Assembly: GCA_947258985.1 (NCBI GenBank)
Contig: CAMYKI010000045.1
Coordinates: 1 to 38,842 of the forward strand
Source of the DNA: an uncultured Acidimicrobiaceae bacterium
Lineage (GTDB): Bacteria; Actinomycetota; Acidimicrobiia; Spongiisociales; UBA5794
Direction of reading: 5' to 3'
DNA length: 38,842 nucleotides
Below the pieces are notes generated by a model. That model saw only the letters and a list, made by a program, of their open reading frames with translations. It was not told the DNA's origin and made no database searches. The translations under genes were made by a program, and so were the position numbers. Positions 8,567 through 24,683 of this stretch are shown here, piece by piece (position 1 is the stretch's first letter; each line of letters begins with the position of its first letter).

Positions 8567-9955
8567 TCAACCGACGCCTCGATCTGCCGAGCCTGTGGCA
8601 ATCTGCCGCTCAACGAGCCCTACCGCGATGTCGTTGTCACGGTAGCGGTCGAAAACCAGTCGCATCGAGTGTACGTTTGACCGGATGTCTCGGTCATCGA
8701 GAAGCCGGGCTATGTGGCCTTCGAGGGCCTCCGGCCGGCCACCATTGAAGGATCCCATTACGCCGAGACCGTGGTACTCCACCCGGGCTGCGATACCGCC
8801 CTGATCGAGCAAACGGGGCGGGTACACAGCCACGGGTACCTCGGACGCGACGCATTCGTGCACCGACGAGGAACCGCCATGGGTGATAGCGCAATCTGCC
8901 GTCGCGAGCACCTGCAGTTGCGGTGCCCACGCCAGCGGCAGCACGTTGTCCGGCAGACGCGGAAGGGTCTCTGTCGTCGCTTGCCGTCCGAGTCCGAGCA
9001 CCAAATCCCACTCTGTTCTCCGGCGGAACGTATCGATGACGGTTGACAGGAACCGTGGATCTGACCAGTAGGAACCCAAGGAGCAGTAGACCAGCGGTCG
9101 ATCCGGGGCCTGCCGCTCACGGGTCTCCAAGAATTGCTCCCATTGGTGACGCGAGTTGGCGTCGAGGCGCCCCTCGGGTCGGTTTGCCGGGATCATCGGT
9201 CCCCCGTAATGGAGATTGGGATGGGCGTCGTGGGGGAAGTCCATCTCCCGCGCGGTGAAGGAGAGAACCGGCAGGCGGGTGTACATGAAAGGGCGCAACC
9301 ATTGCCTGCGGTCGGTATTCGCATCGAGGTCGTATCCCCTGGACCGGGCAACTTGTTCCAGGTCGGCGAGGTAGTTGGTTCCGTAGGAAACCGGCCGCAA
9401 GAAGTCCCCGACACCACGTCGCCCCAACTTGTGTTTCACCGACGCGGCATATGAGCCGAAGCGGACGCGCCTCCACGCCCGATCGATATCGAGCTCGAGG
9501 TTCGGATCTGCTGATGGGACGAGTTCTGAGTTGTGAGGGGGAAGCCCCGGCGACCGGTAGATGGAGAACCAGTTCATCATCAGCATTGTTGGGATGCCGA
9601 GACTCGCTGTGGCGATGGTGGCATAGTGCATTTCGATATCGATGAGCAGCATGTCCGGGTGGAGGCGCGCGATGACTCTTTCGAACTCGTCGGTGTTGAT
9701 CGTGTCTTTCCGAGCCTTCCGCATCCCGGCGATCCATCCCACAGGGTTCGCCTTTGCAGCGCGCACGGATTGGCCAATTCTCTCATCGTCGACCACCCTC
9801 ACGAAGTCGTGATCATGATCGACAACGTCAGGCCCGATGTCGGAGTGACTGACGAACGTGATCGTGTGCCCGGATCGACGAAGCCGGTTGGCCAACTCCA
9901 GGCTCGTGTTGAGCCTGCTCGTGAGGCCGTACGGAATCAGAACGATGTGGGCCAC
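8567..9955 (-). CDS. GT1-family (UGT/MGT-like) glycosyltransferase
   Basis: 462 aa from GTG 9955, which sits 7 nt beyond the upstream gene's stop; the open frame extends to 10066 but that part overlaps the HupE-like gene and lacks family character. N-terminal VAHIVLIPYGLTSRLNTSLELANRL is the acceptor half, and the donor-binding half carries PLVYCSLGSYWSD and the signature LAWAPQLQVLATADCAITHGG plus SSSVHECVASEVPVAVYP. GT1 enzymes of this kind transfer sugars from UDP or dTDP donors to small lipophilic acceptors or lipids. Its position in an apparent operon with a PPTase next to an NRPS makes glycosylation of the peptide product possible but unproven. Confidence 0.85.
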   Translation of the reverse strand: MAHIVLIPYGLTSRLNTSLELANRLRRSGHTITFVSHSDIGPDVVDHDHDFVRVVDDERIGQSVRAAKANPVGWIAGMRKARKDTINTDEFERVIARLHPDMLLIDIEMHYATIATASLGIPTMLMMNWFSIYRSPGLPPHNSELVPSADPNLELDIDRAWRRVRFGSYAASVKHKLGRRGVGDFLRPVSYGTNYLADLEQVARSRGYDLDANTDRRQWLRPFMYTRLPVLSFTAREMDFPHDAHPNLHYGGPMIPANRPEGRLDANSRHQWEQFLETRERQAPDRPLVYCSLGSYWSDPRFLSTVIDTFRRRTEWDLVLGLGRQATTETLPRLPDNVLPLAWAPQLQVLATADCAITHGGSSSVHECVASEVPVAVYPPRLLDQGGIAARVEYHGLGVMGSFNGGRPEALEGHIARLLDDRDIRSNVHSMRLVFDRYRDNDIAVGLVERQIATGSADRGVG

Positions 9956-9962
9956 GGGGGCG

Positions 9963-11360
9963 CTACGCCCGGCCGACGGAAACAGCAGCTTTGGGGGCGG
10001 CGAGAACCGGATCCGCTGCGACCGGAAGCAAACTGGAGCCACGCCGATCGTACGTGTATAGCCCAATTGCTCCGAGGTAGATCAGAACGAGGAACGACAA
10101 CGAGTTCGGCCAGAGGACTACGCGATCAACCACGTTGTCAACCGGTGTCGCAAACCCGAAGGTCCGTTCGAGAGCCCAAAGTGCTGCGACGATGATGAGG
10201 GCGACCGAACCGGCGTGCATTGCCGGAAGGTAGGCGCGGGTGCGTCTCGCCAAATAGAGCGCTGGGAAGATGACGATGATGATGACCGCTTGCCCGAGCT
10301 CGATTCCAAGATTGAAACCGAGGAGCGATACGAATTGACGGCTCTGGGTGAGTCCAAGCTCCGACAGCAAGCCGGCGAAACCAAAACCGTGGAACAGGCC
10401 GAAGCCGAACGCAATGATCCACTCCCGGTTCACGAGGACGGGCCGTATGTTGTGCAGTGCGGCGAGGATGATCGACACCGCGATCAAGGTTTCGACTAGG
10501 GCGGACGGGAGTTCGATGACACCCAACCCACCGAGAGTGAGCGTGATCGTATGGGCGATGGTGAACATCGTCACGATCTTGAGCACGCGCCACAGGCTTG
10601 CCCCGAACCGGGGTGACGGCTCCCAGCCGCGAGGTCTACTGAACACGAGAACCGCAGGCAACATGAGCGCAAAAACGAACAGGATGTGATCGGTGCCAAT
10701 GCGGATATGCTCGACTCCAAGTCCGATCACGCCGGTGAGTCCACGCCAGAACGACTCGTCGCCAAGATCGACGGTCTGCACGGTGCTATCGGCTGTGTAT
10801 CGGAGCAACTCGCTGGCTTCGTTGTTGAACGTGCCTGAGCCCCAATCGGTGCCGATGATGAGCAGCGCGTCGCGCTGCGGATTCGCATGGATGATCCCGT
10901 CGTATGCCACGACAAACTGACGCGGTGCCGGAGCAAACGTGGCGTCGAGTTCGAAGTTGACGACCACATATGCATCCACGCTGGTGTCAAGGGTCTCCAA
11001 CTCGCCGAAGACGATAGGCCACTCCGTCCCACCCGTGCTGGCGACTGACAAATGCTCCCTGCTGTACGTATAGATGGCTTCAGCGTTGGCTTCGACGGCA
11101 GCAAGGGTTCCCTCCCCACCGATGGGGAGATTCAGGCCCAACACCTCGTTCAGGTCGCCGACCGGATACTCCACACGCCCCTCGATCGTCGATTCGTAGA
11201 TGTCGAGGTACACGTAGCTCTGATCGCCGCTATGGGCTCCGGCCGCCGTGGACAACGTCATCAGAATTGAGGCAGCGAGGGTGGCGACGATGATTGTTCG
11301 CCACCTGCGTCGCCGGCCAGACGCCCGGCGTCGAGCGCTCTCACAGTATTCCCCGGTCAC
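9963..11360 (-). CDS. HupE/UreJ-like integral membrane protein with secreted N-terminal domain
   Basis: 465 aa from GTG 11360, supported by GGGAGG 7 nt upstream. A signal peptide (RRWRTIIVATLAASILMTL, cleavage near AGAHS) precedes an extracytoplasmic beta-rich domain of about 190 aa. The C-terminal half has about 7 membrane helices with the family motif GVEHIRIGTDHILFVFALML, then AHTITLTL and FGFGLFHGFGFAGLLSE. HupE/UreJ proteins are linked to nickel supply, but this two-domain form is widespread in genomes with no hydrogenase nearby, and none is visible here, so the substrate is unknown. It lies between PPTase and GT1 genes, all on the same strand. Confidence 0.8.
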   Translation of the reverse strand: MTGEYCESARRRASGRRRRWRTIIVATLAASILMTLSTAAGAHSGDQSYVYLDIYESTIEGRVEYPVGDLNEVLGLNLPIGGEGTLAAVEANAEAIYTYSREHLSVASTGGTEWPIVFGELETLDTSVDAYVVVNFELDATFAPAPRQFVVAYDGIIHANPQRDALLIIGTDWGSGTFNNEASELLRYTADSTVQTVDLGDESFWRGLTGVIGLGVEHIRIGTDHILFVFALMLPAVLVFSRPRGWEPSPRFGASLWRVLKIVTMFTIAHTITLTLGGLGVIELPSALVETLIAVSIILAALHNIRPVLVNREWIIAFGFGLFHGFGFAGLLSELGLTQSRQFVSLLGFNLGIELGQAVIIIVIFPALYLARRTRAYLPAMHAGSVALIIVAALWALERTFGFATPVDNVVDRVVLWPNSLSFLVLIYLGAIGLYTYDRRGSSLLPVAADPVLAAPKAAVSVGRA

Positions 11361-11476
11361 GATATGTCCTCCCACCCAGTCCTAAGCCCGACGAGATAAT
11401 CCAAAAGACCGCGCCGGATACTACAACGGGTGACGAAAGGCGAACACGGATAGTGTTCCTCCCGACCCGTGGCAGG
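11361..11476. other. Short spacer between PPTase stop and HupE-like start
   Basis: Contains the ribosome site GGGAGG for the GTG at 11360. No clear promoter or hairpin is visible, so transcription from the PPTase gene may read through. Confidence 0.4.
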
Positions 11477-12217
11477 TCATCCTCGCTGCCCGTCGTTCTC
11501 CGTCCCGCTTTTCGGGAGTACTAACCAGGTTACGACCGTCGAACCAAGCCACCCGCAGCCTACGTCGAAGGGTCGATCCGGCGGATACTCTGTGCTCACA
11601 GGTTCTACAAGGCGGCCGACGTATCCCGATGTTGTCGGCTCCAGCAAAGCCGCCTCGAAGCCGAAATACGACCTGACTGTTGGGAAGAACGCCTTGAAGA
11701 TCGACTCCTTGGCCGAGAACAAGGCCAGCAGATCATCGGCTCGCTCGGACTGCGGTCGATCTTCGAGCCACGTCCGTTCTTCGGGTCGTGGGATACGGTT
11801 CTCGAGTTCGGGGGCATGGCGACGCTGTTCTACGTCAACGCCGACGCCATCAGTCCGGCTTGCGGGCGCAACCAGGGCGATGCCGATGTCAGTGGTGTGC
11901 GAAATCGACCCAACCACACCCGCCGGCCATATCGGTTCGCGCATATCGCCGGCGAGAATCGGTCCGGTATCGCGACCCAGCGAAGCGAGCGCGTCGTGAG
12001 CGGCCGACCTCCCGAGGCTGAAAGACCTACGCCGAGCAAGACCGGCACGCGGGTGCAACATGGCCTCCTCATCAGAGTGGAGCGGTTGCGCTTCCTCCCC
12101 CAGGACGAAAATCGAGCAACGTGCGAATTGGGGGATATTCGGACGCCACGCCGCCAAACGGTCACGGTCAGCGGGGAGGCTACGTTTAGTCATTGCCGCA
12201 ATGCTCTCTGTTGACAC
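11477..12217 (-). CDS. 4'-phosphopantetheinyl transferase (EntD/Sfp type)
   Basis: 246 aa from GTG 12217; ATG 12193 (MTKRSLPAD) is an equally good start. Conserved blocks: GSISHTTDIGIALVA (the SISH substrate loop), DGVGVDVEQRRHAPELENRI (the Mg-binding GxDxE motif) and LLALFSAKESIFKAFFP (the FSxKES catalytic helix). The enzyme moves phosphopantetheine from CoA to the serine of carrier domains. It lies next to and divergent from an NRPS operon with three carrier domains (Ser35 of the small carrier, Ser1319 and Ser1000 of the two NRPSs), so it most likely activates them. A consensus -35 box for the NRPS operon overlaps its start. Confidence 0.92.
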   Translation of the reverse strand: MSTESIAAMTKRSLPADRDRLAAWRPNIPQFARCSIFVLGEEAQPLHSDEEAMLHPRAGLARRRSFSLGRSAAHDALASLGRDTGPILAGDMREPIWPAGVVGSISHTTDIGIALVAPASRTDGVGVDVEQRRHAPELENRIPRPEERTWLEDRPQSERADDLLALFSAKESIFKAFFPTVRSYFGFEAALLEPTTSGYVGRLVEPVSTEYPPDRPFDVGCGWLGSTVVTWLVLPKSGTENDGQRG

Positions 12218-12304: not shown

Positions 12305-12409
12305 ATGGCAGCAGTGTGGAGTGTCGACGGCGGCCAGATCACGATCATAGGTATGGTGACGCCCGATACCTTGTCGGCTTCCCAGCCTCTGAGGAGGCCT
12401 CATGAGTGA
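12305..12409 (+). CDS. Candidate 34-codon ORF leading the NRPS operon
   Basis: ATG 12305 is preceded by AAAGGGTGGA, a fair ribosome site. The peptide begins MAAVWSVDGGQITIIGMVTP and ends LRRPHE; its stop TGA (12407-12409) overlaps the first codons of the cyclodeaminase gene (ATG 12402). The GAGGAGG ribosome site of that gene lies inside this ORF. It could be a coupling or attenuator-like leader, or a chance frame. I recognise no family, and it is not an MbtH protein. Confidence 0.3.
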   Translation: MAAVWSVDGGQITIIGMVTPDTLSASQPLRRPHE

Positions 12410-13384
12410 GCGACGCGAGTCCGAGACAACCATCATCGCCCGGGATGACATCGCGACCATAATCAACCGCGTAGGTCTCGATCGGCTGATGGACGAGATG
12501 ATTGACCGACTGCGGAGAGCGATCATCTCCTTCGACGAGACTGCGACCCGGGTGCGAACCCGCGACGGGTTCCACTACACCGAACCCGATCTCGGGTTAC
12601 TGGAGTGGATGCCGGTGATACAGGCCGGAGAAGCCACCACCATCAAGGTTGTCGGCTACCACCCGAACAACCCGTCCGCGTTCAACCTCCCCACCATTCT
12701 TTCGACAATCAGCGTCTACGAGACCGGCTCGGGTCATCTTGCAGCCCTCGCCGACGGTACGTTCCTCACCGCGCTCCGCACGGGGGCTGCTTCCGCTGTG
12801 GCTAGTGGCGTACTCGCCCGACCCGATTCCCACATCCTCGGCCTCATCGGGTGCGGGGCGCAATCAATCACGCAGATGCATGCGATCGTGCGTACCTTCC
12901 CCATCGATCAGATCCATATCACCGATGCAAGTCAGGCAAACGTCGCGTCGTTCGAGACAAGGGCGGCCGAGGTGCTGCCCGACGGAGTTGAGGTGCGGGC
13001 CATGCCCGTTGAACAGCTGATGATGTCGGCCGACATCGTATGTACCTCAACCTCGGTTGGCATTGGCGAAGGCCCGCTTTTCGATGACCTCCCGACGAAT
13101 CCTTGGCTCCATATCAATGCCGTCGGATCCGATTTCCCCGGCAAGGTGGAACTGCCGGCTGCGATGTTGCGGCGGGGGCTTGTGTGTCCCGACGTGCGGC
13201 GCTCGGCGACCAGGTTGCCATGCGGATGCTGCTCGAGCAGGCCGACCGGGCCGGTGTCGGCACCCGCATCGCTCTCGAAGACATCAGCGAAGATCCGCTC
13301 GATCCGTACGACCTGGGTAGGGCTAGTGCGTTGGCATCGGCTCCCGTCGCGGAATTAGGGGCGGCCCGGGGGAGTGGCGTGTGA
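12402..13384 (+). pseudogene. Ornithine cyclodeaminase / mu-crystallin family gene with internal deletion and frameshift
   Basis: The ATG 12402 frame (GAGGAGG upstream) encodes a clear ornithine cyclodeaminase/mu-crystallin protein through about codon 266. Visible blocks are the substrate-side KVVGYHPNNPSAFNLP, LTALRTGAASAVAS, the NAD-binding Rossmann loop ILGLIGCGAQSITQMHAI, CTSTSVG, and NAVGSDFPGKVELPAAML. After VCPDV the frame degenerates to Arg/Pro/Cys-rich sequence ending at 13358. The family C-terminus (ALGDQVAMRMLLEQADRAG, then TRIALEDISEDPLDPYDL) continues in another frame to a TGA at 13382-13384. The usual 45-50 residues between these points (EGE.QQL to FDS.G) are absent, so there is a deletion, not a multiple of three, near 13190-13205. 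Members convert ornithine to proline plus ammonia, which fits the downstream proline-activating enzyme. Either the gene is broken or the assembly collapsed here. Confidence 0.75.
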
Positions 13385-13479
13385 TTGTCGTAGCGAGGGG
13401 CGCTGCCCACGAACCGGTGCGATACCGCACGGATGCTTTGGTGGAGCGTGGGCTTGCTCCCTACAACCTGGAACATTGA
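13381..13479 (+). CDS. Candidate 32-codon ORF, coupled to flanking genes
   Basis: GTG 13381 overlaps the TGA of the cyclodeaminase C-terminal frame (GTGA junction) and has GGGGGAG just upstream; its own TGA ends 1 nt before the ATG of the adenylation gene. The peptide reads MIVVARGAAHEPVRYRTDAL and ends YNLEH. No family is recognised. Position, spacing and ribosome site favour translation, length argues against a function. Confidence 0.35.
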   Translation: MIVVARGAAHEPVRYRTDALVERGLAPYNLEH

Positions 13480-13480
13480 T

Positions 13481-15106
13481 ATGTCATTCGGTTCGGCCTC
13501 GGCCCGTTCTCGGTGGACCTACCTGCTCCCGCAGCTAGTCGAGCAGGCGGCGGAGTCGGATGCATCCCACGTTGCACTCCGCCATCGACAAGACTCCCTG
13601 ACCTACGGGCAGCTTCTCTCTGGATCGGCGCAGCTAGCGCACGCGTTGATTGCCGATGGCGTCGCTCCTGGAGAACGGATCGGCATACTGCTTCGCAAAG
13701 GCCTCGACAGCGCTGTCGCGCTCTACGGCATCATGAGCGCCGGAGCGGTCTACGTACCGATCGACCCCGCAGCTCCGGCGTCACGTGTGGCGTTTCTCAT
13801 TCGTGACTGCGGCATCACCCGACTTGTAACCAGCGACGCGATGGCCGGTGCGCTGGAAGCTCTCGAGGGCGAGGGTGTGTCGCTGGCGGCGGTATACGGG
13901 GTGTCAGACGACGCTGCGTCGCCGTTCCCGTCCGTGGCATGGGAGGAAATGACGGGATTCCCCGAAGCACTGCCAAACCTGTCGACCACGGAGCAGGACC
14001 TCTGCTACATCCTCTATACGAGCGGCTCAACGGGTACACCGAAGGGCATCATGCACACTCACCGGAGTGCGTTGTCGTGGGCCGAGATTACGGCGTCGGT
14101 GTACCGACTGGGGCCTGCCGACGTCATCAGCAACTATGCCCCCTTGCATTTCGACCTTTCGACGCTCGACTACTTCGGTGGGGCACGGGCGGGCGCAACC
14201 ACCGTGATCATCCCGGAGGAGTACACCCGGTTCCCCGCAAGCCTTGCGAAACTGATTGCCAGTGAGCGGATGACCGTCTTCTACACCGTGCCATTCGCTC
14301 TCGTTCAGTTGTCCGCCCCGGGGATCCTCGACGATCTAGAACTCGATCGGTTGAGACTTGTTTTGTTCGGCGGGGAGCCGATGCCCATGAAGCATCTCAG
14401 GAAGGCGATGGGGAAGATTCCCCACGCACAGTTCGTGAATGTGTACGGGCCGACGGAGACCAACGGCTGTACGCACTACCCAATCGAACGACCATTGCCG
14501 AAATCGATGAGCAGCCTCCCGATCGGGAAGCCGTATCCGAATGTCGAGATCCGGGTGCTCGACAACGAGGGCCATCCTGCCGCTATCGGCGACTCGGGTG
14601 AGCTACTCGTGCGAACCCCGACGCTCATGCGCGGCTACTGGGGTCGGCACGACCTCAACGAGGGGGCTTTTCACAAGACAACCGAACGAGGCGGCCTCCC
14701 CGAGGTCTATCACCGGACCGGGGATCTGGTGTCGCCCATGGAAGACGGCGATCTGAGATTCCTTGGCCGGATGGATCGCCAGATCAAGTCGCGGGGTAGT
14801 CGTGTCGAGCTCGATGAAGTTGAGGCCGTCCTGCTGGCAAATTCGGAGGTGCATGAAGCAGCCGTGTATGCGGTGCCCGACGATGCAGGCATCCTCGCAA
14901 TCCACGCCGAAGCGATCCTGACAACGGAATCAACTGCCACTGAGAAGGACCTCCTAGATCATCTTCGATCCGTTCTACCTGCGTACGCCCTGCCGGTCGC
15001 CATTAACGTGAGGACGTCCTTTCCGCGGACCTCGACCGGGAAGATTGACCGGCTCGAAATGCAGGCGGAGCCGACGACGCCGGTGACTGCCATCGGGCGT
15101 CGGTGA
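13481..15106 (+). CDS. Stand-alone proline-type adenylation enzyme (L-prolyl-AMP ligase, PltF/PigI-like)
   Basis: 541 aa from ATG 13481 (GGAA 7 nt upstream); an earlier ATG at 13433 adds a poor N-terminus overlapping the small ORF. Core motifs: A3 LYTSGSTGTPKG (~178-189), A5 NVYGPTETNGC, A7 YHRTGDLV, A8 LGRMDRQIKSRGSRVELDEVE, A10 PRTSTGKIDRLEM. Aligning by eye to GrsA gives the specificity residues D-L-L-Y-L-G-V-G-C-K. I recall DLLYL..VCK as the code of proline enzymes that feed pyrrole biosynthesis, matching at six or seven positions. No condensation or carrier domain is attached. It would activate L-proline with ATP and load it on the small carrier protein encoded next. The stop overlaps the ribosome site of that gene. 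Confidence 0.88.
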   Translation: MSFGSASARSRWTYLLPQLVEQAAESDASHVALRHRQDSLTYGQLLSGSAQLAHALIADGVAPGERIGILLRKGLDSAVALYGIMSAGAVYVPIDPAAPASRVAFLIRDCGITRLVTSDAMAGALEALEGEGVSLAAVYGVSDDAASPFPSVAWEEMTGFPEALPNLSTTEQDLCYILYTSGSTGTPKGIMHTHRSALSWAEITASVYRLGPADVISNYAPLHFDLSTLDYFGGARAGATTVIIPEEYTRFPASLAKLIASERMTVFYTVPFALVQLSAPGILDDLELDRLRLVLFGGEPMPMKHLRKAMGKIPHAQFVNVYGPTETNGCTHYPIERPLPKSMSSLPIGKPYPNVEIRVLDNEGHPAAIGDSGELLVRTPTLMRGYWGRHDLNEGAFHKTTERGGLPEVYHRTGDLVSPMEDGDLRFLGRMDRQIKSRGSRVELDEVEAVLLANSEVHEAAVYAVPDDAGILAIHAEAILTTESTATEKDLLDHLRSVLPAYALPVAINVRTSFPRTSTGKIDRLEMQAEPTTPVTAIGRR

Positions 15107-15117
15107 GGGAGGGCTCT

Positions 15118-15375
15118 ATGGAAGAACAGATGATTCGCTTCATCGATGACGTGATACTCGGTGGTTCGGGGCATGGCATTTCGGTCGATGATGAGATTGT
15201 CCTCAACGGCACCGTCGACTCGCTCGGCGTGACCCGCTTGCTGGACTTCATAGAGGATTCACTCGGTGTAGCCGTTCCGGCAGAGGATGTCACGATTGAG
15301 AATTTCCAATCCGTTGGCTCGATCTGTGCGTACCTACGAGGGCGCGCCGAGTATTCGGAACAGGGGGCTCGGTGA
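15118..15375 (+). CDS. Stand-alone peptidyl carrier protein (PltL-like)
   Basis: 85 aa from ATG 15118, preceded by GGAGGG; a GTG at 15103 is in frame but overlaps the upstream stop and lacks a site. The phosphopantetheine serine is Ser35 in GTVDSLGVTRLLDFIE, and the rest is a four-helix carrier with acidic helix II. It would hold proline loaded by the preceding enzyme while the acyl-CoA dehydrogenase downstream oxidises it to pyrrole-2-carboxyl. Its TGA overlaps the GTG of the next gene. The serine context VDSLG is closer to acyl carrier than to the NRPS GGDS context, as is usual for such stand-alone carriers. Confidence 0.88.
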   Translation: MEEQMIRFIDDVILGGSGHGISVDDEIVLNGTVDSLGVTRLLDFIEDSLGVAVPAEDVTIENFQSVGSICAYLRGRAEYSEQGAR

Positions 15376-18300
15376 CCGGGGAACACACCAACTCACAGAC
15401 TTATCCCCTCACTGCAGCTCAGGCATCGATATGGGCGAGCCAGGAACTCCATCCCGACGTGCCGCTGTACAACATGGCGTTTCTCTACGAATTCGACGGT
15501 GGCATCAACGAGGACGCCTTCGTTTCTGCCTTCTCTTCACTAGTTGACGAGGCCGATGCCCTTCGCACCGTCTTTCGCGATACAGGCGGTGAGGCCGAAG
15601 CCCTCGTGATGCCCCTCGATGAATTCGTTCTTCCCGTCATCGACCTGAGCACAGCCGGCGATTCGGAGCGCGACGCCGACGCCTGGGCTCAGTCGAGAAG
15701 TACGGTGATGCTCGATACCTCCGAGCGCACCTTCGACAGTGCCCTTCTCCGACTCGGGCACGATCGTTACGCATGGTTTCTGCTTCAACACCACCTGTGC
15801 ACCGATGCCTGGACGTTCACGGTCCTATTCCGGAGGATGGAGCAGCTCTATCTTGCGGCCACCGGGAGTTCGGTCGACGCGGTCGAACTGAATCCGTTCG
15901 CCCGATATGTCGAGTTCGAGGCTGCGGAACGCCGAGAAGCCGGCCATGCTGCCGAGAAACCCTCACAGGCGAAGCAGCCAGCGCCGCTCGAGATCTACGG
16001 AAGTAGACATCGGGACACATCAACGGCGAACGAGCGCGAGTCGGTGTCGCTAAGTGAGCGCACCTCACAGCAGCTCGACGAATTGGCTGGGTCGCCAGGG
16101 GTGCGGGCGCTGACGCCCAATCTCAGCAAGTTCCAGATCGTGGCGACGGCTATGTATGCCTGGCTTCATCGAGTGAGCGACCAGCCGAGCATTACGATCG
16201 GGCTGCCGGTGCACAACCGGACGCAGCCCGAGTTCCGGACCACCGCCGGCCTCTTCATGGAGGTCTTTCCCTGCACGGTTGACGTCGCAGCCGAGGATAC
16301 GTTTGCGTCACTGCACGCCAAGGTCCGCCAGGCAAGCATGGAAACTCTGCGATCAGCAAGGCCGGGGGCCTCCACGGCCGCCGAGGCACGAGCGGTCTCA
16401 ACCGTATTCAACTTCATCCAAGCCGAGTTCGGGGCTTTCGCCGGCATCGACTGCCGTTCGACCTGGGTACATCCCGATCATGTTGACGGCGTCCATCAGC
16501 TCCGTGTTCAGGCCCACGACTTCGATGCAACCGGACGGCTGCGCTTCGACTTCGATGGAAGCGCCGACACCTTCGACGCGGGAACTCGCGGTTCGATGCC
16601 GCAGCATTTCTTGCGAATAGTGGATGCGATGCTCACAGATTGGGAGGCGCCGATCGGGTCCGTGGATCTCCTCGAGGATGAGGAGCGGGCGGTCATCGAT
16701 GCCGCCGTCAACCGATCTGCACCCGATGTAGCGCTTGCCGACGTAGTCGAGCAATTTGCCCGCACCGCAGCGAGGGCACCGTCCGCACCGGCTGTGATCG
16801 ACGGTGACCAAACGTGGTCCTATCAGAGGCTCGACGACGCAAGCCGAGCCGTTGCCGCGAACTTCCAACCCGGGGGTGTCGTCGGGGTGGCGCTACTTCG
16901 ATCGGCCGAGGCCGTTGCGACCATCCTCGGAATCCTCCGCGCCGGCGCTGCGTTTGTCCCCATCGATCCCTCGTGGCCGCGAGACCGCATCAGGTTTGTC
17001 GTGGAGGATGCAGGTTGTGTGACCGTGGTTGCCGACGGTGACATGGGCGTCGCGACAACACCCTTCGAGGAACTCCAATCACCCTCCTCGAGATCCGATA
17101 TCCGGCCCGATTCCTCTGACCTGGCATATATGTTGTACACCTCCGGCTCGACCGGGGTGCCAAAGGGCGTCATGATCGAGCACCGGTCTCTTGCCCATTA
17201 CGTGTCATGGGCGTCGAGCTTCTATGACCAGGGACAGCGCTTGACCTTCCCGTTGTTCACGCCGATGACCTTTGACCTCACCATCACGTCGATCTTCGTG
17301 CCGCTGGTGTCCGGAGGCGCAATCCGCGTCTATTCGGAGAGTGAATCTCAAACCGATCTTGTCGTGTTGGACGTGTTCAACGACGACGCCGTTGACATCG
17401 TCAAGCTCACCCCCTCGCACCTAACGTTGCTGCCAGATCACGCCACGAAGAAACGAAGGATCCGTCGGCTAATCGTCGGAGGGGAGAACCTGACGACGGC
17501 GACGGCTCGTGGCGCACTGGCGAAGCTCGAGGATGATGCCCTGTTGCACAACGAGTATGGGCCGACGGAGGCAACTGTGGGCTGCATCGTCCACACTTTC
17601 GATTCGACATTCGATCGAACTGACAGCGTCCCGATCGGGAAGCCCATCCCCGGGATGCGTGCGTACGTTCTTGATGACGGCGGGCACAGGGTTCCGTTCG
17701 GAGTTCCAGGAGAGCTATTCCTTGCCGGCGATGGTCTCGCACGGGGCTACCTCGGTCGCGATGACCTGACCCTTGGCCGGTTTATCGTCCCCGGCCACGT
17801 TGCTGAGCTTCGTCTGTATGCGACCGGTGATCGTGCTCGGGTGCGTCGTGACGGGACAATCGAGTATCTGGGGCGGCACGACGACCAGGTCAAAGTGAAG
17901 GGTGTGCGCCTCGAGCTTGGGGAAGTGGAGGCGGCACTTGCGTCACACCCCCAGGTCTCTGCTGCAGCGGCCTCGGTCTGGGTCAAGGATCCACACTCTG
18001 AGAGCGACGAGGTTGTCTACTGCTCCCGCTGCGGCCTGGCGTCGGACCAACCAGGGGTCTCCTACGACGAGCATCGAGTATGCAATCTATGCCGAGCCTA
18101 CGACACGTATCAAGATCGTGCCGAGGCCTACTTCAAGCCGGAGGATGAACTCAAGGCGGTCCTAACCTCGCGACGAGACGGCATCGCCGACTACGACTGC
18201 ATTTCGCTCTTGAGCGGCGGCAAAGACAGCACCTATGTGCTGGCCCGCCTCGTCGATATGGGGCTGCGTGTTCTTGCGTTCACTCTGGACAACGGATACA

Positions 18301-19553
18301 TCTCCGACCAGGCGAAGGCGAATATCACCGGGGTGGTCGAGACACTTGGTGTCGATCACATTTTTGCGACAACACCAGCGATGAACGAGATCTTTGTTGA
18401 CAGCCTGCAGCGCCATGCGAATGTCTGCCAGGGTTGCTTCAAGACCATCTACACACTCAGTATGCAGATGGCCCATGAGCGAGGCATCCCATTCATCGTT
18501 ACCGGCCTTTCCCGCGGTCAATTCTTCGAAACTCGGCTCACTGAGGAGCTGTTCACGGAGCTCACGGTCAACGCAGACGAGATCGATGTCGACGTGCTGG
18601 AGGCGAGAAAGGCGTACCACCGTGTTGACGACGCCGTCCGCCAATTCCTCGACGTGTCGGTGTTCGACGACAATGAGATCTTCGATGAGGTCCAGTTCGT
18701 CGATTTCTACCGCTACGTGAGCGTGGACCTCGACGACCTCTACGCCTACCTCGAGGGGCGGCTCCCCTGGAAACGCCCAACGGATACCGGCAGGTCAACC
18801 AACTGTCTCATCAACGACGTTGGTATCTACTACCACCGGAAGGTGCGCGGGTACCACAACTATGCACTTCCCTACAGCTGGGACGTTCGGATGGGCCACA
18901 AGACCCGGAGCCAGGCCCTCGACGAGCTCGATGACGATATCGATATCGCTGAGGTGTCCAGGATTCTGGATGAGATCGGGTTTCCCGACGATATTGGCGA
19001 GCACGAATCCGGGCAGCGTCTCGTGGCGTACTACGTCGCGCCGGTCGATATCCCAACCCCCGAGCTTCGAACGCACGCATTGGAGGCCCTTCCGCAACAG
19101 GCGGTGCCGTCGCAGTTCATTCGCCTCGAGACTATTCCACTGACATCGAATGGCAAGGCGGACCGTTCGGCGCTGCCGGAGCCGGAGCATCAACGCCCCG
19201 AGCTCGGTGCGGCTTTCGTTGCGCCGCACACCGAGACGGAGAGAGCGCTTGCTGCCATCTGGGAGGATGTGCTCGGGATCGGCGGTATCGGAGTCCGTGA
19301 CAACTTCTTCGACCTCGGTGGCGACTCGATCATGGCGATCCAGATCACGGCTCGGGCCAATCGTGCAGGTCTTGCCATCACCCTTCCGGGCCTGCTCGAC
19401 GCGCTGACCATCGAACAGCTGGCACGCGCCATAGAGGGCGACGATGGCACAGCCGAGGAAAAAAAGCCTGAAGCGGTTGAGATCCCCGAGATATCAGCGG
19501 ATGAGATGAGTCGACTCGCCTCTCTACTGCAGCGTCGTGACGGTGGTTCATGA
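15372..19553 (+). CDS. NRPS C-A-PCP with a Zn-ribbon/PP-loop ATPase domain inserted in the A domain
   Basis: 1393 aa, GTG 15372 (AGGGGG upstream, GTGA overlap with the carrier gene). Order: condensation domain (~10-430; LTAAQASIW, HHLCTDAW at 140-147); adenylation core (~458-870; LYTSGSTGVPKGV near 585, NEYGPTEA near 727, A8 LGRHDDQVKVKGVRLELGEVE near 833); an insert (~880-1214); the rest of the A domain (RLVAYYVAP, PLTSNGKADR near 1256); carrier (LGGDS, Ser1319). The specificity residues read D-L-T-K-I-G-E-V-G-K, one change from the classical asparagine code DLTKLGEVGK. The insert opens with CSRC (884, 887) and CNLC (904, 907), has a PP-loop SGGKDST (948-954), a VCQGC pair (1019, 1022), GLSRGQFFETRLTEELF and a NDVGIYYHRK..GYHNYALPY block, the pattern of N-acetyl sugar amidotransferase-like alpha-ANH ATPases. 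It probably modifies carrier-bound substrate; sulfur or ammonia as donor is not decided by sequence. Confidence 0.92.
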   Translation: MTGEHTNSQTYPLTAAQASIWASQELHPDVPLYNMAFLYEFDGGINEDAFVSAFSSLVDEADALRTVFRDTGGEAEALVMPLDEFVLPVIDLSTAGDSERDADAWAQSRSTVMLDTSERTFDSALLRLGHDRYAWFLLQHHLCTDAWTFTVLFRRMEQLYLAATGSSVDAVELNPFARYVEFEAAERREAGHAAEKPSQAKQPAPLEIYGSRHRDTSTANERESVSLSERTSQQLDELAGSPGVRALTPNLSKFQIVATAMYAWLHRVSDQPSITIGLPVHNRTQPEFRTTAGLFMEVFPCTVDVAAEDTFASLHAKVRQASMETLRSARPGASTAAEARAVSTVFNFIQAEFGAFAGIDCRSTWVHPDHVDGVHQLRVQAHDFDATGRLRFDFDGSADTFDAGTRGSMPQHFLRIVDAMLTDWEAPIGSVDLLEDEERAVIDAAVNRSAPDVALADVVEQFARTAARAPSAPAVIDGDQTWSYQRLDDASRAVAANFQPGGVVGVALLRSAEAVATILGILRAGAAFVPIDPSWPRDRIRFVVEDAGCVTVVADGDMGVATTPFEELQSPSSRSDIRPDSSDLAYMLYTSGSTGVPKGVMIEHRSLAHYVSWASSFYDQGQRLTFPLFTPMTFDLTITSIFVPLVSGGAIRVYSESESQTDLVVLDVFNDDAVDIVKLTPSHLTLLPDHATKKRRIRRLIVGGENLTTATARGALAKLEDDALLHNEYGPTEATVGCIVHTFDSTFDRTDSVPIGKPIPGMRAYVLDDGGHRVPFGVPGELFLAGDGLARGYLGRDDLTLGRFIVPGHVAELRLYATGDRARVRRDGTIEYLGRHDDQVKVKGVRLELGEVEAALASHPQVSAAAASVWVKDPHSESDEVVYCSRCGLASDQPGVSYDEHRVCNLCRAYDTYQDRAEAYFKPEDELKAVLTSRRDGIADYDCISLLSGGKDSTYVLARLVDMGLRVLAFTLDNGYISDQAKANITGVVETLGVDHIFATTPAMNEIFVDSLQRHANVCQGCFKTIYTLSMQMAHERGIPFIVTGLSRGQFFETRLTEELFTELTVNADEIDVDVLEARKAYHRVDDAVRQFLDVSVFDDNEIFDEVQFVDFYRYVSVDLDDLYAYLEGRLPWKRPTDTGRSTNCLINDVGIYYHRKVRGYHNYALPYSWDVRMGHKTRSQALDELDDDIDIAEVSRILDEIGFPDDIGEHESGQRLVAYYVAPVDIPTPELRTHALEALPQQAVPSQFIRLETIPLTSNGKADRSALPEPEHQRPELGAAFVAPHTETERALAAIWEDVLGIGGIGVRDNFFDLGGDSIMAIQITARANRAGLAITLPGLLDALTIEQLARAIEGDDGTAEEKKPEAVEIPEISADEMSRLASLLQRRDGGS
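18012..19014 (+). other. Inserted Zn-ribbon + PP-loop (alpha-ANH) domain inside the NRPS A domain
   Basis: The insert lies between A8 and A9/A10, the same place used by methyltransferase insertions in interrupted A domains. It begins just after SVWVKDPHSESDE and ends before GQRLVAYYV, where the A-domain C-terminal subdomain resumes cleanly. It is complete: N-terminal four-cysteine ribbon, SGGKDS nucleotide loop, LAFTLDNGY second strand typical of PP-loop enzymes, a CxxC at 1019-1022, and a C-terminal helical part. Family members adenylate a carbonyl or amide oxygen and replace it with N or S. No HisH/HisF-type ammonia-supplying partners, which sugar amidotransferases need, are seen in the window. 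Confidence 0.85.
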
Positions 19554-22500
19554 CCGCGCTCTCGGGCCTGGAGAACGTCGAGGACGTATATCCCTTGACG
19601 CCCATGCAGCAGGGCATGCTCTTCCATACACTTGCGGACTCGACCTCCGGGGTCTTCGTCAATCAGATGTCTCTCACGCTCGAGGGCATTCTCGACCCCG
19701 AACTGTTTCGGCGCGCATGCGGTCGGCTCCTGGAACGTCACCCAGCGCTGCGCACGGCGTTCGTGTGGGACGGCTTGGATGCGCCGCTTCAGGTGGTCCG
19801 GGACACGGTCACGCTCGATTGGGCCGAGCACGACTGGACTGAGCACGACGAGCAACAGCGTCGTGTGATGGCAGACGAGCTGCTCGCAGGCGATCGGGAG
19901 CTGGCGTTCGACCTCGCGGACGCTCCTTTGACTCGCATGGCGCTCATCCGCCATGCCGCCGAGTCCTGGGAATGGGTGTGGACGACACACCACCTGATTG
20001 CGGACGGCTGGTCCCTACGGATCATGCTCGGAGAGCTATTCAGCGACTACAACGGCGACCTGCCACCCGATGCTGAACCCAGCTTCAGATACCGCGACTT
20101 CGTTGCTCTTGCCAACAGATCGTCAGACGGAGGGGACGAAGCGTTCTGGCGGTCGACGCTTGCGGGTTTCGAGGAACCCCACAGGCTCGAAGTGCCGGGT
20201 CTCCCCGTAGTCGGGTCCGGACACAGCGCTCAGGTCGTCACTCTGCCGGCCGACGCAAGCGCGGCGCTCGTGGAGTTCGCGAGGAGCCAGCGAGTGACGC
20301 TCAACACAGCGATCATGGGCGCATGGGGCATCACCCTGTCACGCTGGATGCGTACTCGGGACGTTTGTTTTGGCGTCACCTCATCTGGTCGTGATCCGCG
20401 GGTGCCGGGCGTGGAGAATGGTGTCGGGTTGTTCATCAATACGTTGCCGCTTCGCATTGACGTTGCGGCGGAGGCGACGCTCGGTACCTGGCTTCGCGAT
20501 CTCCAGGATCGGCAGAGCGCGCTCCGTGAGCATGAATTGGATTCGCTCGCCGCCGTCCAACGGTGGAGCGAAGTCACTGCGGGCACGCCGCTGTTCGAAA
20601 GCATCTTTGTTTTTGAGAATCTTCCGGGAGTTGATCCCGACCAGAGCGACGTAGATCCGAGGATCACGGCAACGCAGTTCTCCGAGCACAGCAACTATCA
20701 ACTGGCGATTCTCGTGCATCCGGGCGATGAGATCACTATCCGGTTCATTCACGATCGTTCGAGGCTGTCGGATGACGCAGTCCGTTCGCTCGGTTGGCAG
20801 ATGCTCGCACTGCTGGGAGCAATGCCGCAGGCAACGTCCGCCCGACTGGCCCAGATCGAGACAACGACGGAAGCCGACGCGGACCGGCTCGCAGAATGGG
20901 GCCGGGGAGCCGACCTCGACCCTGGAGACGCGACGATCGTCGAGATGATCGCTGCCGTCGCAGACCGAGCACCAGAGACAGTTGCCGTTGGCTTCGGCGA
21001 TGACGAGATCACATACGGCGACCTGTGGCAGGCTGCGGGCGTTGTCGCTGCTCATTTGCAGCAGGCTGGCGTCGGTCCGAACCGGTTGGTTGGCCTCCTT
21101 CTTTCTCGATCAATCGAGATGCTCATTGGAATGGTCGGGATTCTCCGGTCCGGGGCCGCATACGTGCCGCTCGATCCGCAATACCCGATCAACCACATCT
21201 CGAAATTGCTCGAATCAGGCGGTGTTGCCCACGTTGTGACGGACGATGGGCACCGCGGCCTCGTGCCGAGCGGGATCCGCGTCGTCGATGTCAACAACCG
21301 GCAGCCGGGTCTCACGCCGGACGGCCTGCTGCCGAGTGCCGACGATCTCGCGTATGTAATCCACACCAGCGGTTCGACCGGCACTCCCAAGGCCGTAGGA
21401 GTTACTCACCGCAATCTTGCGTATTCAACGCTCGCTCGCGGTGAGCACTATGACGAACCCGTTGGCCGGTTCCTGCTGCTTTCGTCGTTTGCGTTCGACA
21501 GCTCCGTTGTCGGGCTGTTCTGGACCCTTGCCACCGGAGGAATGCTCGTGTTGCCGGACGCCGGTGGCGAGCACGATGCCGACCACCTCCTCGATCTGAT
21601 GGAGCGCCGCAGCGTTACCCACTTGCTCTGTCTCCCCTCGCTATATCAGCTTCTCCTCGATCACGACGCCAACGGGCGTATGTCATCGCTGCGGGTTGCG
21701 ATTGTGGCCGGGGAGGCCTGCCCTTCGGGGGTTCTCGAGACTCACGCGGACCGGCTCCCAACGACGCAACTCCACAACGAGTACGGGCCGACGGAGGCGA
21801 CGGTGTGGTGCACGGTTCACGAGGCATCTTCATCTGATGCTGGTGGCCCGCTTCCCATTGGCCACCCGATTGCCGGTGCGCGCATCTACCTGCTCGACGA
21901 TTACGGAAAACGGACGCCGTGGGGTTACGTGGGTGAGATCTGTGTTGCCGGCGGGGGCCTGACGGCAGGTTATCTCGACCGGCCGGACCTCACGGCGGAA
22001 CGGTTCGTCACGGTCGATATTGGTGGAAGTACCGAGCGCGTCTATCGAACCGGCGATCTCGGGTTCATCGATGGCAACGGATCGCTGCAGTTCCTCGGGC
22101 GCGTCGACAAGCAGGTGAAGGTGCGTGGTTACCGCATTGAGCCCGGCGCGGTCGAAGCTGCGCTGCGTTCACATGAGGCAGTGGCGGACGCAGCAGTGGT
22201 GGGCCGCTCCCCACGCGGCAGATCGGCGACACAGTTGGTTGCATTCGTGGTTACGGTGCGTCCGGAGGATGACGTGAGGGATCTCAGACAGGCGATGCAG
22301 GCCGAGCTACCTCGCCACATGGTTCCCGACCTGGTTCTGGCTACAGCGGAGATCCCTCGACTTCCCAACGGCAAGGTCGACTACGGCGGCCTTCCCGAGC
22401 CGGCATCGCAACAAGAAGCGGGCAGAGGATTCGTCCCCCCACGCAATGACACCGAAGCCACGCTCGCCAAGCTATGGGCAGAGCTTCTCGAAGTCGATCT

Positions 22501-23491
22501 CGGTTCCATCGGCGCCGATGCCGATTTCTTTGCGCTCGGCGGGGACTCACTCATCGCAATCCGGCTGACGTCAGCGGTGCATCGGGAGTTTGGCGTGGCT
22601 GTTCCGTTGTCGTCCTTGCTCGACGCTCCGAAGCTTGGGGACTACGCCGACCTCCTTGGCACCCGTCCGCCGGAATCGAGATTGCTCGTACCGATCCGAG
22701 GTAGCGGACCGGTCGTGCTGTACATGATCCATCCCGGCGGAGGGAATGTGTTGGCCTACGAGCCGGTTGCGCGCAACCTTCCTGAGTCGATCACCGCGAT
22801 CGGTATCCAGGCTCGGGGTGTTGAGGGGGTGGACGAGCCGGATCGAACCATCGAACGGATGGCTATACGGTATGCGGAAGCGATCGATGAGTATCAACCA
22901 ACCGGAACCATCCACATGGTCGGCTACTCCACCGGGGGGCTAGTCGCCTTCGAGACAGCTCGTGTTCTCGAGCAGCGGGGGAGGTCCGTCGGTTTCCTCG
23001 CCATGCTCGACACGCTGTACCCACTGGGGAAGAGCATCGGCGATCGGGTCGCTCGACAAGTCAATACTGTCAGAGGGGGCGGGTTGGTCGGAGTTCGAAC
23101 GGTCTTGGCGTGGTGGTGGGCCACCTTCCGCGCCACTGCGGGCCGGTTCCGCCACGGGCCGAAGTGGCGATACCGTGCCGCGAAAGGGATTCCGTTGCCT
23201 CCCGAGCTGGCCGGGAAGAGGATCAATCACATCGCCCTCAAGGCGCAACGTGCCTATGAGCCCGGCCGCTACGGTGGAACGGTCACGTACCTGCGCGCGA
23301 CGGGTGATGAGGGTCTGCTCTACCAAGTCAGCCACGAGTTGTGGAGCTCCGTGACCGCCGGCGTGTTCGTCCGTGAGGCGCCGGGACGACACACCGGGGA
23401 GGGGAGCATGGTCCTCGACCCCCATGCATCGGAAACAGCTCGCATCCTTGCTGAAGAACTGGAGCGTGTGTCCGGAATGGAACGTGCATGA
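19550..23491 (+). CDS. NRPS C-A-PCP-TE termination module
   Basis: 1313 aa, ATG 19550 overlapping the previous TGA (ATGA). Condensation domain (~10-440): LTPMQQGMLFH, HHLIADGW at 147-154. Adenylation (~463-955): IHTSGSTGTPKAV near 604, NEYGPTEATVWC near 743, YRTGDLGF, A8 LGRVDKQVKVRGYRIEPGAVE, A10 RLPNGKVDY. By-eye specificity residues are D-S-V-L-I-A-E-V-W-K, which I cannot assign to an amino acid. Carrier: LGGDS with Ser1000. Thioesterase (~1040-1313): MIHPGGGNVLAYEPVA, nucleophile Ser1127 in GYSTGG, catalytic His1281 in GRHTGEG; it would release the product as acid or ring. There is no epimerisation domain, so residues should be L unless racemised elsewhere. Confidence 0.93.
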   Translation: MTALSGLENVEDVYPLTPMQQGMLFHTLADSTSGVFVNQMSLTLEGILDPELFRRACGRLLERHPALRTAFVWDGLDAPLQVVRDTVTLDWAEHDWTEHDEQQRRVMADELLAGDRELAFDLADAPLTRMALIRHAAESWEWVWTTHHLIADGWSLRIMLGELFSDYNGDLPPDAEPSFRYRDFVALANRSSDGGDEAFWRSTLAGFEEPHRLEVPGLPVVGSGHSAQVVTLPADASAALVEFARSQRVTLNTAIMGAWGITLSRWMRTRDVCFGVTSSGRDPRVPGVENGVGLFINTLPLRIDVAAEATLGTWLRDLQDRQSALREHELDSLAAVQRWSEVTAGTPLFESIFVFENLPGVDPDQSDVDPRITATQFSEHSNYQLAILVHPGDEITIRFIHDRSRLSDDAVRSLGWQMLALLGAMPQATSARLAQIETTTEADADRLAEWGRGADLDPGDATIVEMIAAVADRAPETVAVGFGDDEITYGDLWQAAGVVAAHLQQAGVGPNRLVGLLLSRSIEMLIGMVGILRSGAAYVPLDPQYPINHISKLLESGGVAHVVTDDGHRGLVPSGIRVVDVNNRQPGLTPDGLLPSADDLAYVIHTSGSTGTPKAVGVTHRNLAYSTLARGEHYDEPVGRFLLLSSFAFDSSVVGLFWTLATGGMLVLPDAGGEHDADHLLDLMERRSVTHLLCLPSLYQLLLDHDANGRMSSLRVAIVAGEACPSGVLETHADRLPTTQLHNEYGPTEATVWCTVHEASSSDAGGPLPIGHPIAGARIYLLDDYGKRTPWGYVGEICVAGGGLTAGYLDRPDLTAERFVTVDIGGSTERVYRTGDLGFIDGNGSLQFLGRVDKQVKVRGYRIEPGAVEAALRSHEAVADAAVVGRSPRGRSATQLVAFVVTVRPEDDVRDLRQAMQAELPRHMVPDLVLATAEIPRLPNGKVDYGGLPEPASQQEAGRGFVPPRNDTEATLAKLWAELLEVDLGSIGADADFFALGGDSLIAIRLTSAVHREFGVAVPLSSLLDAPKLGDYADLLGTRPPESRLLVPIRGSGPVVLYMIHPGGGNVLAYEPVARNLPESITAIGIQARGVEGVDEPDRTIERMAIRYAEAIDEYQPTGTIHMVGYSTGGLVAFETARVLEQRGRSVGFLAMLDTLYPLGKSIGDRVARQVNTVRGGGLVGVRTVLAWWWATFRATAGRFRHGPKWRYRAAKGIPLPPELAGKRINHIALKAQRAYEPGRYGGTVTYLRATGDEGLLYQVSHELWSSVTAGVFVREAPGRHTGEGSMVLDPHASETARILAEELERVSGMERA

Positions 23492-23540: not shown

Positions 23541-24683
23541 ATGAAGCGAACGATCTTTGATGGAGACCACGATCTGTTTCGATCGTCGGTTCGAGGATTC
23601 ATCGAACGAGAGATCAAGCCGCATCACGATCACTGGGTAGCCGAGCGGATCGTCCCACGCGAGGCTTGGCTGAAGGCGGGAGCGCAGGGGCTCCTGTGTA
23701 TGTCGGCGCCCGAGGAGTACGGCGGCGCCGGCGTTGAGGACTTCCGCTACCCGGCGATTCTGGCCGAAGAGCTGCAGCGAGCGAACTGCACCGGCCCGGG
23801 CTTCGGCATCCACAGCAACATCGTTGCTCCGTACATCATCCGCTACGGCACCGCTGAGCAGAAGAAGCGCTGGGTCCCCGGCATGATTTCCGGCGATACG
23901 ATCCTTGCGATCGGAATGACTGAGCCGGATGCGGGGAGCGACCTCGGCGCCATTCGCACGTCGGCGATCGAAGACGGTGACAACTACGTGGTGAACGGAG
24001 CAAAGGCGTTCGTCACCAATGCCGTCAATGCAGACGTCATCATCGTCTCGTGTGTCACCGACCCGGAGAAGGGGCAGTGGGGTATCTCGCTGCTCGCCAT
24101 CGAGCGGGGAACTGAAGGACTCCAGGTTGGTCCGCCGCTCGCAAAGGTGGGATGGCACGCACAAGACACCGCTCAGGTCTTCCTCAACGATGTGGTTGTC
24201 CCGCAGGGCAATGTGATCGGGAAACCCGGCCAGGGAACCTTCCTGATGGGCAAGGAACTCAACCAAGAACGACTGCTCATCGCGGTGAGCGCCCTTGCAG
24301 CTTCTCGAGCAGCCCTCGACTGGACCATCGCCTACTGCAAGGAACGACAGGCGTTTGGGCAGCCAATCGGTACCTTCCAGAATTCCCGTTTCCTCCTGGC
24401 CGAGATGGAGACTGAAGTGACAATTGGCCAGACGTTCCTTGACCGTTGTGTCATGGAGTGGAATGCAGGGTCGCTGAGAGCTGATGAGGTTGCGATGGCG
24501 AAGTGGTGGGCAACCGATCTGCAGCAACGCACGATCGATCGTTGTGTTCAACTACACGGTGGGTATGGGTACATGGCCGAGTATCCGATTGCTCAGGCCT
24601 GGCTGGACATGCGGTGGACGCCCATCGGTGGCGGCACCAACGAGATCATGAAGGAGATGATCGGCCGCATGATGGGGTTCTAA
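23541..24683 (+). CDS. Acyl-CoA dehydrogenase, probable prolyl-carrier oxidase (PltE/PigA-like)
   Basis: 380 aa, ATG 23541 with TGGGAG 7 nt upstream, 49 nt after the NRPS stop. FAD-binding and ACAD blocks: AIGMTEPDAGSD (123-134), KAFVTNA, VGWHAQDTAQVFLNDVVVP, RQAFGQPIGTFQ, QLHGGYGYMAEYPIAQAW, IGGGTNEIMKEMIGR. The YEGT-type glutamate of short/medium-chain enzymes is replaced by GGGT, and Glu243 in LNQERLLIA occupies the position of the catalytic base of isovaleryl-CoA dehydrogenase-type members, as I recall for pyrrole-forming prolyl-carrier oxidases. With a proline A enzyme and stand-alone carrier in the same operon, four-electron oxidation of prolyl to pyrrole-2-carboxyl on the carrier is the best role. 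A general fatty or branched acyl-CoA dehydrogenase cannot be excluded from sequence alone. Confidence 0.88.
   Translation: MKRTIFDGDHDLFRSSVRGFIEREIKPHHDHWVAERIVPREAWLKAGAQGLLCMSAPEEYGGAGVEDFRYPAILAEELQRANCTGPGFGIHSNIVAPYIIRYGTAEQKKRWVPGMISGDTILAIGMTEPDAGSDLGAIRTSAIEDGDNYVVNGAKAFVTNAVNADVIIVSCVTDPEKGQWGISLLAIERGTEGLQVGPPLAKVGWHAQDTAQVFLNDVVVPQGNVIGKPGQGTFLMGKELNQERLLIAVSALAASRAALDWTIAYCKERQAFGQPIGTFQNSRFLLAEMETEVTIGQTFLDRCVMEWNAGSLRADEVAMAKWWATDLQQRTIDRCVQLHGGYGYMAEYPIAQAWLDMRWTPIGGGTNEIMKEMIGRMMGF

Follow-up and report, generated by a model that had tools for sequence, protein, structure and literature searches.

A 38,842-nt stretch of DNA from an uncultured Acidimicrobiaceae bacterium (contig CAMYKI010000045.1; hereafter the window) encodes a nonribosomal peptide synthetase (NRPS) pathway whose first synthetase, NRPS1, carries a 334-residue PP-loop insert within its adenylation (A) domain. 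NRPS1 also contains condensation (C) and carrier (T) domains, and it is followed directly by NRPS2, which ends in a thioesterase (TE). The insert is a genuine and well-conserved feature that looks like an already described kind, the aminomutase/amide dehydratase (AMDH) domain, and its setting within the pathway is given in Table 1.

Table 1 Features of the NRPS pathway and flanking genes in the window (open reading frame, ORF; AlphaFold2, AF2).
Feature	Position	Strand	Basis or remark
NRPS1, C-A(AMDH)-T, 1393 aa	15372..19553	+	Asn-type code DLTKIGEVG
NRPS1 condensation domain	15393..16694	+	PF00668, residues 8-441
NRPS1 adenylation core up to A8, Asn-type	16755..17981	+	PF00501, 462-794; TIGR01733, 483-866; A code
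AMDH-type PP-loop insert, 334 aa	18012..19013	+	TIGR03573 match; AF2 model; homologues
Zn ribbon CSRC...CNLC (C884, C887, C904, C907)	18021..18092	+
PP-loop SGGKDST	18213..18233	+
Core CxxC (C1019, C1022), triad residues 1 and 2	18426..18437	+	invariant; aligns with LarE CxxC
C1145 (STNC), triad residue 3	18804..18806	+	invariant; aligns with third LarE Cys
A9/A10, rest of A C-terminal subdomain	19014..19157	+	PF13193, 1212-1262
NRPS1 carrier (T) domain	19245..19433	+	PF00550, 1292-1354
NRPS2, C-A-T-TE	19550..23491	+	His-type A code DSVLIAEVW
Stand-alone carrier protein	15103..15375	+	PF00550
Stand-alone adenylation protein (A0)	13433..15106	+	proline-like code; putative starter loading
Ornithine cyclodeaminase (OCD)/mu-crystallin family gene	12402..13358	+	PF02423; relatives in 28/80 loci
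Phosphopantetheinyl transferase	11477..12217	-	PF17837, PF01648
HupE/UreJ_2 family membrane protein (metal transport family)	9963..11375	-	PF13795; relatives in 55/80 loci
UGT-type glycosyltransferase	8567..10066	-	part-time neighbour (15/80 loci)
Acyl-CoA dehydrogenase, generic type	23541..24683	+	pathway membership uncertain

An AMDH-type insert in a predicted asparagine adenylation domain

As a first-pass annotation of this DNA had proposed, the A domain of NRPS1 is split between motifs A8 and A9, with A9/A10 and the carrier resuming after the insert. The alpha adenosine nucleotide hydrolase (ANH) fold and Zn ribbon claimed there for the insert were likewise recovered, as a TIGR03573 match, in an AF2 model and as a CxxC..CxxC pattern ahead of the PP-loop. 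An assembly chimera, which would have undone this description, was excluded by comparison with 80 related loci, the best 80 of 289 relatives (294 matching stretches) from a scan that took a single genome for each species, so that closer relatives are over-represented among the 80; the window copies L001 and L002 were set aside from the 80-locus counts and phyla were assigned from record titles. An A core preceded the insert in the same ORF in 79 loci, the 80th being cut by a contig end, and the loci spanned nine phyla (Actinomycetota, Acidobacteriota, Planctomycetota, Bacteroidota, Cyanobacteriota, Chloroflexota, Verrucomicrobiota, Pseudomonadota and Gemmatimonadota). A carrier motif followed in 77/80, and the full set of A-core, A10 and carrier motifs was recognized by pattern in 71/80. 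An insert-restricted protein search (7992 candidates scored) returned 2102 NRPS-sized proteins at E ≤ 0.001, and an insert-only search returned 640 smaller proteins; among the 120 matches listed, most had a carrier domain and resembled NRPS fragments. Distribution was patchy, with the insert found in 24 of 299 genomes of a Flavobacteriaceae sample (centre genome counted), in one of 292 Cyanobacteria (the centre genome itself) and in one of 149 from the window's own phylum (the window's genome).

Conservation within the insert was high. The Zn-ribbon pattern preceded the PP-loop in 246/250 proteins (a tighter pattern in 74/80 loci), SGGKDS was invariant in A5, a 45-sequence alignment of the insert family, and a core triad of cysteines (a CxxC plus a third Cys) was invariant in 80/80 loci and 324/324 proteins. 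Across 32 modules, mean identity was 62% for the insert and 46% for the host A core. A catalytically dead insert, or one with a purely structural role, is hardly credible given this conservation of sequence and motifs, and no observation spoke directly for it.

The insert looks like an AMDH domain of the CysH and AlbIV kind, as matched by published description rather than by alignment to CysH. In the available excerpts on cystobactamid biosynthesis (PMC7966384), the CysH AMDH is a 38 kDa, SGGKD-bearing domain with seven conserved core motif regions, set within an Asn-specific A domain; it produced a loss of 18 Da (beta-cyanoalanine) on carrier-bound Asn in vitro and iso-asparagine (iso-Asn) in vivo, its deletion abolished both nitrile and iso-Asn cystobactamids, and its homologues all lay in Asn-specific A domains, none of them tied to a known product. 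Excerpts on albicidin (PMC12283262) describe an insert in the AlbIV A domain, 342 aa long and assigned to the adenosine nucleotide alpha-hydrolase superfamily, suggest in situ conversion of Asn and link the AlbIV code DLTKIGEVGK to beta-cyanoalanine, a nitrile proposal also found in PMC7966384. The window insert agrees with AMDH domains in size, in its SGGKDST motif and in its place inside an A domain with an Asn code. Its context differs in that CysH is a stand-alone module passing its residue in trans and AlbIV is a single-standing NRPS of a p-aminobenzoate peptide pathway, whereas the insert studied here belongs to an elongation module (C-A-T) in an Asn-His line accompanied by a HupE gene. 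Of 494 matches in a protein search from a myxobacterial relative, 120 were listed, and none of these was named CysH. The AMDH-bearing A domain was of Asn type in 79/79 readable loci (the remaining locus was cut by its own contig) and in 131/131 readable proteins, a set compiled after removal of P0001, P0002, duplicates and proteins with <420 residues ahead of the PP-loop; the earlier suggestion of carrier-bound Asn as the likely substrate was thus upheld.

The best profile and fold match of the insert was to TIGR03573 and 8wex, the WbuX-type sugar amidotransferases, and the Zn ribbon is shared with two such enzymes (L085 and L090). Production of an Asn amidine with ammonia, in the manner of the TIGR03573 sugar enzymes, is nevertheless very improbable. 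In hidden Markov model searches the insert scored 119.4 and 124.4 bits, below the curated cut-off of 203.2, none of the three sugar amidotransferases examined (L085, L086 and L090) had the triad, and neither a glutaminase nor a HisH/HisF-type partner was found among the Pfam-scanned window ORFs. The same results agree with the initial judgment that a free-standing sugar amidotransferase role is unlikely. Other PP-loop families scored far lower, with 24.7 bits for LarE (TIGR00268, cut-off 150) and 24.9 bits for QueC (TIGR00364, cut-off 150.3). The Pfam QueC profile scored 22.6 bits against 22 but covered positions 2-75 of 210 only, so that the likeness to QueC, counted with the nitrile synthetase ArtA (9leh, 9lei) among the nearest known systems, is limited to the PP-loop part. 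In L085, L086 and L088, plasmid genes annotated as QueC-like or as N-acetyl sugar amidotransferases lie close to asnB, where AsnB is perhaps the ammonia source instead of HisH.

The cysteine triad and the proposed reaction

All three triad cysteines aligned with cysteines of LarE in hhalign, and the CxxC was additionally aligned with 8cnz; VIA-align rows were taken as evidence of a shared fold only. LarE proteins of the 4Fe-4S type (8cnz, 8cp4 and genomic L120-L123, the last four presumed from 8cnz to hold the cluster) share the PP-loop and these cysteines with the insert, but act on another substrate, and the alignment begins after the insert's Zn ribbon. Alignment with TtcA was weaker and local (probability 77, insert residues 43-187 only), with the third Cys outside its range. 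The triad is predicted to bind a [4Fe-4S] cluster that, like the one in TtuA, would leave one iron site free. According to the excerpts of PMC7966384, CysH protein was brown, its color was unexplained and the AMDH mechanism was left open, with no CxxCxxxC motif found and no structure. The match of the triad to LarE offers a concrete, testable cofactor hypothesis for that mechanism. A search of open-access titles and abstract openings turned up nothing on the Cys triad or on an Asn-His-HupE cluster. As far as this literature goes, three points are new: the proposed cofactor and, described below, a near-constant Asn-His backbone and a metal-linked neighborhood.

Taken together, the comparison with CysH and AlbIV suggests that the insert most likely dehydrates the carrier-bound Asn amide to a nitrile (beta-cyanoalanine), likely as a step toward a small metal-binding peptide, and we put the probability of this reading at roughly 0.6. 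Judging from its A code, the host A domain would load L-Asn onto the T domain, after which the PP-loop would, as its fold implies, adenylate the carboxamide oxygen of Asn. ATP-dependent activation of this oxygen has been proposed for AlbIV in the printed excerpts. The putative [4Fe-4S] cluster on C1019, C1022 and C1145 could then assist, through its free iron site, the loss of AMP and a proton to yield the nitrile. One locus weighs against a strict link to Asn: on a Streptomyces sp. NBC_01216 plasmid (L084:14062-18112), a split relative, 40% identical to the insert, has its AMDH-like domain in a protein of its own, joined to a condensation-type domain. Here asnB is followed by an A-T protein with the non-Asn code DARHASLMT and then by the AMDH-like protein, and the cluster also contains a tyrosine 2,3-aminomutase gene.

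An alternative is that the insert acts mainly as an aminomutase that places beta-linked iso-Asn in the chain, with the nitrile as a side product. The excerpts of PMC7966384 report methoxy-iso-Asn as a major, AMDH-dependent cystobactamid linker and iso-Asn formation even after deletion of the hydroxylase CysJ. However, they also report mainly dehydration in vitro without CysJ and, as far as they extend, no iso-Asn for albicidin; no CysJ-type gene was present among the Pfam-scanned window ORFs. We therefore regard a predominantly aminomutase function as unlikely.

In the first-pass annotation, a thioamide or amidine was the leading reaction, which the present comparison does not support. CtaC of closthioamide biosynthesis is reportedly an alpha-ANH enzyme that acts on carrier-bound amides and makes thioamides. 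The thioamide reading was demoted because of the AlbIV and AMDH descriptions: the CysH AMDH gives -18 Da in vitro and iso-Asn in vivo (excerpts of PMC7966384), and the A code of the window module is reportedly shared by AlbIV, which also carries an ANH insert (excerpts of PMC12283262). A LarE- or TtuA-like sulfur insertase yielding thio-asparagine, a soft copper ligand, is still in play because a LarE-type triad, lacking in the sugar enzymes above, is a sulfur-insertase feature, and the metal-linked neighborhood would suit such a product. Against this, the characterized AMDH relative gives nitrile and iso-Asn, with thioamide unmentioned in the excerpts of PMC7966384, and no sulfur carrier or desulfurase was recognized among representatives of the 19 neighbor groups common to at least four loci (group 14 had no Pfam match). 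Sulfur insertion is accordingly quite improbable, and dehydration to the nitrile remains the preferred reading. A stand-alone PP-loop protein with the same triad, 24-25% identical to the insert, was seen on a Streptomyces sp. NBC_00470 plasmid (L087:4704-5852) near acyl carrier protein and ketosynthase genes.

The predicted Asn-His backbone and its starter

Partner A domains (all but the AMDH-bearing ones and, by design, those of the stand-alone A group) were nearly uniform. Of 48 readable domains, 47, in 47 loci, carried a code of the form DS(A/V)x(I/M/V)AEVW (this wider pattern supersedes a narrow one that gave 47/47), a type given for His in the excerpts of PMC12283262. Eight of the nine phyla are represented among these loci, the exception being Planctomycetota, whose locus (L009) stops short of a second module. 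From the His-type partner codes and the Asn-type AMDH codes, a product backbone of [starter]-Asn*-His is predicted (Asn* being the modified Asn). In the window, the NRPS1 C domain would join the Asn residue to a starter supplied by the stand-alone A and carrier proteins and probably of proline type; NRPS2 would, by its code, add histidine, and the TE would release the tripeptide.

The stand-alone A protein of the window has a proline-like code (DLLYLGV..), and its match in the PDB was better to LgrA than to prolyl ligases. We take this code to resemble that of PltF. The pyrrolyl starter of the first-pass annotation was not supported for the window and was rejected: the dehydrogenase at 23541 is generic (best PDB match 2pg0), and no close prolyl-ACP (acyl carrier protein) dehydrogenase was detected in the window genome (93% complete), where the best candidate reached 37%. 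A prolyl-ACP-dehydrogenase-like gene was present in 32/80 related loci (closest PDB entry 4irn, a prolyl-ACP dehydrogenase, for two representatives), and a pyrrolyl starter may be valid there. In the flavobacterial loci L027, L039 and L041, the fetched stretch held a carrier and the AMDH NRPS and neither a stand-alone A gene nor a prolyl-ACP dehydrogenase gene, which points to a starter that probably differs from locus to locus next to a constant Asn*-His.

A metal-linked gene neighborhood

Neighboring genes were compared across the 80 loci using ORFs of at least 70 aa that did not overlap longer ones, with each neighbor group named from one representative. Recurrent neighbors were a HupE/UreJ gene (55 loci), a stand-alone A gene (53), a stand-alone carrier gene (51), a TonB receptor gene (48), a small His-rich protein (36), an OCD-family protein (28) and a UGT (15). 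Among the 51 full-length loci (≥20.9 kb), HupE was present in 43 and HupE or a TonB receptor in 47, leaving four with neither. HupE occurred in seven of the nine phyla and was not seen in the Chloroflexota or Gemmatimonadota loci. Nine AMDH-bearing genomes contained 14 HupE_UreJ_2 copies in total; eight of these genomes had a copy within ~8 kb of the AMDH module, and in the ninth, a weak match lay ~11 kb away. The excerpts of PMC4771312 present HupE/UreJ as a family of nickel transporters. The HupE protein had no match in the PDB and the TonB receptor gave only weak plug matches there (BtuB, colicin I receptor). The gene for the His-rich protein (group 5, e.g., L040:11541-12011) has the AMDH NRPS on one side and the TonB receptor gene on the other; the protein contains 8% His against a 2.5% background, and its representative matched no Pfam or NCBIfam family. 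A scan of 136 intergenic regions for perfect palindromes, aimed at the identity of the metal, detected no shared Fur- or Zur-like site.

The conserved HupE/UreJ gene, joined in Bacteroidota by the TonB receptor and the His-rich small protein, suggests that the product could be a metallophore built on the [starter]-Asn*-His backbone. A starter with a nitrogen next to the carbonyl (e.g., Pro), followed by X-His, would give the 5,5,6 ring pattern of an amino-terminal Cu(II)- and Ni(II)-binding (ATCUN) site. Based on this chemistry and on the A codes, ATCUN-like binding of Cu(II) or Ni(II) could be expected of a backbone in which Pro (or pyrroline/pyrrole) precedes X-His, the starter being uncertain. 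A fuller scheme, which we offer only tentatively, is that a LarE-related [4Fe-4S] AMDH, using a cluster with one iron site free rather than a radical, drives dehydration or rearrangement of the carrier-bound Asn amide in one conserved Asn-His pathway of at least eight phyla, and that the resulting [Pro-type]-(cyano-Ala or other modified Asn)-His peptide would be an ATCUN-like Cu/Ni carrier taken up via HupE/UreJ and TonB. The near-constant Asn-His codes and the HupE and TonB genes thereby permit a guess at the product of many orphan AMDH lines, namely a metal carrier in widely separated bacteria. If true, this would tie on-line nitrile chemistry to trace-metal uptake.

Much of the gene set is also carried by plasmids. 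On a Roseovarius pelagicus plasmid (L083:7780-21469), a stand-alone A gene, a methyltransferase, a dehydrogenase, a carrier, HupE and a two-module NRPS adjoin polysaccharide genes, among them one for a true WbuX-type amidotransferase, and a second plasmid (L089) holds much of the same set. In the window, the OCD-family ORF follows its Pfam profile to position 244 of 314 only and then continues into residues unlike the family, a pattern suggestive of a sequencing error or frameshift near the 3' part of the ORF; the relative that represents this group (L075) follows the profile to position 305.
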